The notes below the pieces were generated by a model, which ran no database searches, had not been told where the DNA came from, and was given only the letters and a program-made list of their open reading frames with translations. Below, one piece after another: positions 5,461-49,149 of a stretch of 64,000 nucleotides of DNA. Both the position numbers and the translations under genes were made by a program. Location: the NCBI RefSeq assembly GCF_014803405.1, contig NZ_JACYFG010000007.1:248001-312000 (forward strand), given 5' to 3'. The stretch comes from Pelagicoccus enzymogenes. Its GTDB lineage: Bacteria; Verrucomicrobiota; Verrucomicrobiia; Opitutales; Opitutaceae. The number at the start of each line of letters is the position of its first letter. Within the stretch, counting starts at the first letter, position 1.

Positions 5461-5482
5461 TCGCGAGCAAGCTCGCTCCTAC
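5461..5482 (-). repeat. REP-like palindrome, family A
   Basis: On the minus strand the unit reads GTAG followed by GAGCGAGCTTGCTCGCGA, a GTAG head joined to a palindrome around GCGAGC/GCTCGC. Identical 22-bp copies occur at 17789-17810 and 49084-49105, with a near-identical inverted partner at 49049-49069. It lies just upstream of surE and downstream of the pnp terminator. Confidence 0.85.
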
Positions 5483-14667: not shown

Positions 14668-14692
14668 GACGCCCGCGGAGCGGCCGTCCCAC
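14668..14692 (-). repeat. REP-like palindrome, family C (GTGG head)
   Basis: On the minus strand the head GTGG is followed by arms GACGGCCGC and GCGGGCGTC around a TCC loop (one mismatch). A related copy is at 61864-61888. It lies between convergent HDOD and gcvP genes. Confidence 0.7.
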
Positions 14693-17718: not shown

Positions 17719-17773
17719 TGTAGGGCTCGGACTTTATTGCTCATGCGGGACGGGCATAAAGCCCGCGCCCTAC
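17719..17773. repeat. Inverted pair of REP-like elements (family B)
   Basis: The plus strand starts GTAGGGCTCGGACTTTAT at 17719; the minus strand starts GTAGGGCGCGGGCTTTAT at 17773. These are two diverged copies of one GTAG-headed unit facing each other with about 10 bp between them. The right-hand copy contains a CGGGC/GCCCG stem. The layout is that of a REPIN. Confidence 0.75.
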
Positions 17774-17788: not shown

Positions 17789-17810
17789 TCGCGAGCAAGC
17801 TCGCTCCTAC
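17789..17810 (-). repeat. REP-like palindrome, family A
   Basis: Identical over 22 bp to 5461-5482 and 49084-49105. It ends only 7 bp before the nth start codon, so it probably forms part of the nth 5' leader. Confidence 0.85.
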
Positions 17811-18471: not shown

Positions 18472-18527
18472 GTCGGGAATGGATATCGCGGCTCAAGGCC
18501 GCTTCCCACGAGGATTGGAGCAAAAGA

Positions 18528-19548: not shown

Positions 19549-19573
19549 GTAGGGCTGCCGCTTGCGGCACGCC
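19549..19573 (+). repeat. REP-like palindrome with GTAG head
   Basis: The GTAG head is followed by a perfect TGCCGC/GCGGCA stem and an outer GGC/GCC pair. It faces the unit at 19623-19647. Confidence 0.65.
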
Positions 19574-19622: not shown

Positions 19623-19647
19623 GGTCCGCTGGGACAGCGGACCCTAC
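19623..19647 (-). repeat. REP-like palindrome with GTAG head and perfect 9-bp stem
   Basis: On the minus strand GTAG directly abuts GGTCCGCTG, loop TCC, CAGCGGACC. The stem is perfect. It is in inverse orientation to 19549-19573 but of different sequence. Confidence 0.75.
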
Positions 19648-49007: not shown

Positions 49008-49048
49008 TCTGTCTGGGTTCCGGGGCGCGGGTGTTATGGCCCGGGCGA

Positions 49049-49105
49049 TAGGAGCGAGCTTGCTCGCGATTTTGCGTGGATTTTCGCGAGCAAGCTCGCT
49101 CCTAC
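49049..49105. repeat. Inverted pair of family A REP-like elements (REPIN-like)
   Basis: Left unit 49049-49069 on the plus strand (TAGGAGCGAGCTTGC continuing to TCGCGA, head base changed so it reads ATAG). Right unit 49084-49105 on the minus strand, identical to the copies at 5461 and 17789. A 14-bp spacer lies between them. The pair could fold into a long hairpin. Confidence 0.85.
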
Positions 49106-49111
49106 AAGGAA

Positions 49112-49149
49112 AATGAAAAGCCCTGCCTCCGGGTGTCGGAAGCAGGGCT
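49112..49149 (-). terminator. Rho-independent terminator of ppdK
   Basis: On the minus strand AGCCCTGC pairs with GCAGGGCT, followed by TTTTCATTTT, 30 bp after the ppdK stop. Confidence 0.85.

Follow-up and report, generated by a model that had tools for sequence, protein, structure and literature searches.

The repeat pair and its setting

The window (the whole 64,000-nucleotide stretch of Pelagicoccus enzymogenes DNA analyzed) holds, at 49048–49105, two GTAG-class 22-bp palindromes in inverted orientation, heads outward and 14 nt apart. Its neighbors on the two sides are a PPDK-family gene and a GTPase gene, each on the minus strand. The left REP unit (49048..49069, plus strand) reads ATAGGAGCGAGCTTGCTCGCGA, with an ATAG head and one mismatch, at its first base. 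The right REP unit (49084..49105, minus strand) is an exact GTAGGAGCGAGCTTGCTCGCGA, and the spacer (49070..49083) is the 14-nt loop of a long hairpin. A first-pass annotation had described the same inverted near-copy and 14-bp spacer, and that arrangement stands; its start at 49049 does not, as the left unit begins at 49048. An intrinsic-terminator-like hairpin after the PPDK-family gene (49119..49149, minus strand) adjoins the REPIN and is kept in L422, which is without the REPIN.

Two lone exact copies of GTAGGAGCGAGCTTGCTCGCGA occur elsewhere on the minus strand of the window, where the first-pass annotation had placed them. One (5461..5482) sits in the interval separating a SurE gene from a PNPase-type gene, and the other (17789..17810) in the interval separating the genes of a glycine cleavage P-protein and an HhH-GPD repair protein. 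All three sites of the unit in the window are intergenic. Together with the pair, the two lone copies make up the four window matches at ≤3 mismatches; 100 shuffles of the window gave none. The unit consists of a short hairpin with a GTRG head attached, as in GTAG-type REPs of about 20–30 nt. In single-stranded form the pair makes a hairpin with 21 bp in its stem and 14 nt in its loop (about −28 kcal/mol; z = −9.0 on one strand and −10.1 on the other), and the folding of a lone unit was unremarkable (z = −1.5, with 19/200 shuffles equally good). No Rfam family matched the window at gathering thresholds.

Other REP-like sequences were also observed in the window. A second inverted GTAG pair (17720–17773) lies 15 nt from the unit at 17789 and by eye resembles the repeats of L032, a RAYT of this genome, with a loop one base shorter, which is why our pattern scan of REP classes misses it. 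Lone REP-like units at 14672–14692, 18486–18509, 19549–19572, and 19625–19647 belong to the classes of the L037, L034, L033 (2 mismatches), and L035 RAYTs, respectively, so several REP classes share the window.

Copies and pairing across the genome

The genome assembly (6.2 Mb, 60 contigs, 95.9% complete) carries many dispersed copies of the unit, with an extragenic position known for the three window sites. The first-pass annotation had left open whether copies existed beyond the four in the window. We found 32 exact copies of a 19-mer of the unit (reversed-pattern control 0) and 124 copies at ≤3 mismatches (control 5), and the pattern GTRGGAGCGASCNNGSTCGCGA matched 91 times (control 0). With no match in the window shuffles and none genome-wide for the exact reversed pattern, a chance repeat was ruled out. 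The 91 pattern matches divided into 32 with a GAGC/GCTC stem, 57 with GACC/GGTC, in which the changed pair is compensated, and 2 mismatched. The varying stem pair was thus intact in 89/91 matches, against 49 expected if the two sides varied independently.

We read 110 distinct contexts (32 GAGC, 56 GACC, and 22 other), leaving out copies too near the ends of a stretch. An inverted partner within 90 nt and with ≤5 substitutions accompanied 19 of 32 GAGC units, 8 of 56 GACC units, and 7 of 22 others, including two doubtful, chance-like partner matches (L217, GACC; L236, other). Under a stricter reading (≤2 substitutions, gaps ≤40 nt) there were 16 same-class (A-A) pairs, all 16 head-out, with gaps of 12–17 nt in 13 pairs and 26–27 nt in three. 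Inverted pairs are therefore in excess, as in REPINs, given that 19/32 GAGC units are partnered. The repeat family, the head-out pairing of its units, and the compensated stem changes are each directly supported by these counts. The recognition of REP/REPIN hallmarks by the first-pass annotation is borne out in the anatomy, the genome-wide copies, the excess of inverted pairs, and the presence of RAYT-like genes.

GAGC and GACC units also pair with a second REP type, that of the L034 RAYT gene, which has 169 copies in the genome at ≤2 mismatches. In three head-out pairs the partner of a GAGC or GACC unit is of the L034 type, 16 nt away in each case, and seven neighbors in the same direction were also observed. 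L235 and L392 are one mixed class A/C pair that was entered twice in the pair listing. Neighboring REPs of unlike class were often seen with a common linker like AACCCGATCC (L166, L215, L222, L223, L392), which is absent from the listed head-out same-class pairs.

Spacer likeness was scored for 12/16 A-A pairs (gaps 12–15) and 9/10 head-out L034-type pairs, longer gaps being excluded. The 12 A-type spacers scored 0.565 vs 0.528 for shuffles (sd 0.023), i.e. within 1.6 sd. The nine L034-type spacers scored 0.585 vs 0.494 (sd 0.023), above every shuffle, and the two sets pooled scored 0.607 vs 0.543 (sd 0.015), again above every shuffle, the margin being weak in both cases. In this genome, spacer length is kept and the letters are kept weakly; the spacers may have a common origin.

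Distribution in the genus, family, and phylum

An exact 20-mer of the unit occurred in 3/387 genomes drawn from the phylum, P. enzymogenes included, all of them in its family. With a GTRG head and any loop, 54/200 family genomes had matches, and eleven besides P. enzymogenes had 20 to 82 copies. Across eight genomes of the genus, P. enzymogenes first, the wider pattern gave 91, 34, 6, 6, 2, 0, 0, and 0 matches. A contig titled uncultured Verrucomicrobia (L301) contained four exact units and one near copy in direct orientation over ~375 bp; it was the sole stretch with a Verrucomicrobia title among the 80 listed as carrying the unit, of at least 120 found. In congener G397 we observed longer composites (L173, L174) bounded on one side by a GAGC unit and on the other by an inverted GACC unit, 170–420 bp apart, whose interior sequence is repeated. 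Such composites were considered as RAYT flanks, but by eye no RAYT was seen in the parts read.

The REPIN at 49 kb is kept in three congeners (G448, G508, and G397), with arms identical to the P. enzymogenes copy at 43/44, 41/44, and 43/44 positions, respectively. Identity was 35/40, 29/40, and 23/40 in the left intergenic sequence and 67/74, 65/74, and 62/74 in the right; coding identity at the site to G397, the most distant of the three, was ~80%. The arms are more conserved than the left flank at this one site compared. The site is empty in G464, which lacks the whole pair and its spacer and retains the terminator and both genes, so presence and absence between species is directly observed. 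In G494 and G429 the intergenic stretch differs at this locus, and the G478 matches break off here at contig ends.

Conservation of this kind could mean that the hairpin is a host element, retained for a role in transcription, mRNA stability, or protein binding and mobile only in the past. The arms, nearly unchanged in G397, and the intergenic position of the three window sites fit that explanation. Yet the arm conservation was seen at one site only, the element is dispensable in congeners (three have no pattern matches, and the empty site keeps both genes), and an ordinary terminator already adjoins the REPIN. We regard a host element as unlikely.

Three further P. enzymogenes sites were compared with G508 and G397 so far as anchors allowed, of which the third was not alignable. 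At C37:228468, which was not alignable in G397, the place of the REPIN is taken in G508 by a decayed repeat of another class; that this tested site is not an empty one counts against a REPIN of a dispersed family. The mixed pair at C37:234884 is missing in G397 (L435) together with adjoining DNA, and seemingly in G508 too, judging from alignment breaks.

RAYT genes of the genome and its congeners

The Y1_Tnp profile detected eight RAYT-like genes in the P. enzymogenes genome, seven of them above the cut-off. The L034 protein scored 86.3 bits against the NCBIfam model REP_Tyr_transpos (NF047646, cut-off 80), with the L082 protein just under that cut-off (76.1 vs 80), and the sole solved structure that L034 matched was 4er8, TnpArep. 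H68, H70, and Y124 were invariant across nine sequences, and L034 has the HxH motif and tyrosine of Y1 HUH enzymes. We take Y124 of L034 to be the catalytic tyrosine.

The first-pass annotation had proposed a search for a RAYT gene bordered by the unit, and none was found among the eight. Neither GAGC nor GACC units lay within 450 bp on either side of any of the eight genes, which are flanked by inverted repeats of other classes; those of L034 are GTAGGAAGCGACCTCGCGTCGCGAT and GTAGGAAGCGGCCTTGCGCCGCGAT, the L034-type REP. A wider, looser scan placed one GACC-type unit ~1.4 kb from the L037 gene. Congeners gave the same picture, with the unit flanking none of the seven RAYT loci read, of 14 matches in six congeners. 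The absence of the unit from all eight close flanks and from these seven loci counts against a RAYT-mobilized family. The genome being 95.9% complete, a RAYT with this unit may be missing from the assembly. With L034 as the query, ten Pseudomonadota GAGC RAYTs scored E = 2e-23 to 1e-10, and the remaining congener matches fell below the last listed score, 8e-10. A Pseudomonas-type GAGC RAYT is therefore unlikely among those remaining matches, since it would score E = 1e-10 or better. A strict-motif search found no RAYT gene beside the unit in 113 listed unit-bearing stretches.

The same REP with separate groups of RAYTs

The first-pass annotation had named this motif as a REP of some Pseudomonas species, and this was correct. 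The available text of Nunvar 2013 (PMC3686654) gives REP class PF18 of Pseudomonas extremaustralis as GTAGGAGCGAGCyyGCTCGCGA, identical to the window's unit in head, stem, loop, and tail, and PF8 as a related class with a GTGG head. In a genus group around one Pseudomonas genome, the GTRG form occurred in 22/25 genomes, with up to 927 copies. In the Pseudomonas genomes read, the PF18-type unit flanks RAYT genes in inverted orientation; the P. enzymogenes genome differs in that none of its eight RAYT-like genes was found to carry the unit. It also differs in having short gaps, mostly unlike spacers, and copies in the tens, against hundreds in several Pseudomonas genomes.

RAYT loci, whose gene calls rest on profile search, were collected from the family (57 loci) and from 22 genomes bearing the exact unit (30 loci; 21 genomes of Gammaproteobacteria, Betaproteobacteria, and other Pseudomonadota plus one Verrucomicrobia MAG). 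The unit flanked 5/57 family loci, all in the GTGG form GTGGGAGCGAGCTTGCTCGCGA (L068, L074, L082, L135, L141), and 10/30 Pseudomonadota loci, each of which had the GTAG form as its commonest flanking repeat; the betaproteobacterial loci L358 and L374 are among the ten with the GTAG form. At L372 the GTAG form stands beside another REP class. Repeats with the same 14-nt core, GCGAGCTTGCTCGC, and a different head spacing were observed at L076 and L131, family RAYTs of another clade.

A tree of 82 RAYTs separated 56 family from 26 Pseudomonadota sequences by a 100/100 branch. The GAGC label (15 rows) needed six changes on this tree, a single-clade tree was rejected (p-AU 2.1e-5), and the family has its own GAGC RAYT clade, with a GTGG head. 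Sampling was non-random, covering these two groups: family sequences were chosen by likeness to L034 and Pseudomonadota by possession of the unit. L060 (the same gene as L034), L089 and a fragment (internal stop), and L375, L376, and L377 (weak, no such REP) were dropped beforehand. L378 (no match) and L142 (which repeats L061) are likewise not in the tree, and the label counts exclude L372, which has REPs of two types, along with two rows for which no REP is listed. In Stutzerimonas urumqiensis we observed a RAYT-like gene with an internal stop (L357) that groups with Pseudomonadota and has the best score of its set against the family profile; it shares its flanking repeat, GTAGGAGCCCGCTTGCGGGCGAT, with L088 of the family.

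The first-pass annotation had seen either convergence or horizontal spread in a match between distant phyla. The tree favors convergence over transfer, as RAYTs sharing this REP fall into separate deep groups and their union in one clade is rejected. Transfer would have brought a Pseudomonas-type REPtron into the genus, where it spread the unit and lost its RAYT. Such a history would suit the patchy copy number within the genus and the exact 22-mer common to many Pseudomonas and two betaproteobacterial genomes whose RAYTs it flanks, and RAYT transfer to Thauera has been described in a published report available to us in part. It would have to be reconciled with the 100/100 branch that divides all 56 sampled family RAYTs from the 26 Pseudomonadota ones, with the lack of a Pseudomonas-type RAYT among the seven congener loci read and its improbability by score among the remaining matches, with the family's own GAGC clade, and with gap lengths, which differ between the groups. 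We consider transfer distinctly unlikely.

Retention of one ancestral REP in both lineages since their split would place the GAGC label in both deep groups, as is the case, and label counting on the tree does not tell gain from loss. Against it, neighboring RAYTs on the tree often have unlike REPs, and GAGC is one of nine stem variants seen. This explanation we hold to be highly improbable.

REP sequence space and gap lengths

From the window's unit we defined the sub-form GTRGGAGC-nn-GC-NN-GC-nn-GCGA, in which the nn are paired, giving 16 possible nn. Units of the sub-form occurred at 16/57 family loci and 16/30 Pseudomonadota loci, with 9/16 nn pairs in use and two (GA and CC) in both groups. 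As there are few free positions in the sub-form, unrelated lineages must often meet on one sequence. The full REP space has more than 16 states, because the GACC unit of P. enzymogenes and the REPs of 41/57 family and 14/30 Pseudomonadota loci lie outside the sub-form.

Gaps in 33 family pairs were 11–17 or 25–27 nt, in contrast to Pseudomonadota peaks at 54, 44, and 33–34 nt. In viral and mostly Pseudomonadota stretches (L090–L122, L237–L356), inverted-unit gaps peaked at 24, 33–34, 44, and 54 nt, and the 54-nt REPIN spacers of Pseudomonadota resemble each other (best match 0.81 vs 0.47 shuffled, for the first 20 of 55). Helical phasing was strong across 149 pairs and also after like spacers were collapsed to 60, which gave a best period of 10.5 nt (0/2000 jitter nulls); it was no more than suggestive with each length counted once (R = 0.296, 27 lengths). 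For the 33 family gaps, periods of 12–13 were a better fit than 10.5. Among the papers listed, no title pointed to work on helical spacing of REPINs.

A broader proposal, which we put forward tentatively and as somewhat doubtful, is that RAYTs read a small REP code. Within the sub-form, the head and two stem pairs hold nearly all variation, and unrelated lineages in different phyla could thereby reach the same 22-mer. The helical phasing of paired units (~10.5 nt, in Pseudomonadota) would point to two units being handled on one DNA face.

Interpretation

We conclude that the feature at 49 kb is probably a REPIN of a dispersed non-autonomous family, and that its identity with the Pseudomonas REP probably reflects convergence in a limited sequence space instead of recent transfer. 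The unit would fold when its DNA is single-stranded, for instance on the lagging strand, where a RAYT, as a Y1 HUH nuclease, would recognize the GTAG head and stem-loop, then cut and rejoin the DNA and thereby spread copies. The unit was probably mobilized by a RAYT and may move at present. These copies were probably made by a RAYT of the L034/L061 lineage, in which the cognate REP later switched, or by one that was lost; the L034/L061 lineage is suggested by the head-out pairing of GAGC and GACC units with L034-type REPs.

As a REPIN, the feature is of an ordinary, known kind. The text available from Di Nocera 2013 (PMC3733652) describes GTAG REPs and RAYTs as widespread, includes GTAG repeats in Opitutus terrae (Verrucomicrobia), assigned to families 17, 19, and 20, and names Proteobacteria as the GTAG-1 species. 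By that description, the GTAG-1 family resembles the unit in having GTAG, two unpaired bases, a stem-loop, and a short tail, with head–head dimers as one form. The accessible portion of Bertels and Rainey 2011 (PMC3116915) reports over-represented, hairpin-forming inverted REP doublets in P. fluorescens SBW25, like those found here but with other REP sequences; doublets there measured 71 and 110 bp in simulations, against 56–61 bp (13 pairs) and 70–71 bp (3 pairs) here. Portions of PMC2817692, PMC8266576, and PMC6006769 were also drawn upon. The string GAGCGAGCTTGCTCGC matched the literature text of one paper, and among the papers listed we found no report of this REP match between phyla, judging from titles and abstract openings. 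REPs in Verrucomicrobia (PMC3733652) and the window's REP sequence in Pseudomonas (PMC3686654) are thus already in print, as far as the available text of both papers goes.

The case is nonetheless informative, as a letter-for-letter match across distant bacteria becomes a testable statement. If there are few REP states per form, such identity says little in favor of transfer, and horizontal spread should not be inferred from REP sequence alone. The P. enzymogenes genome contains several RAYT/REP classes, and its orphan class is linked through mixed pairs to one RAYT; it is well suited to testing the change of RAYT targets.
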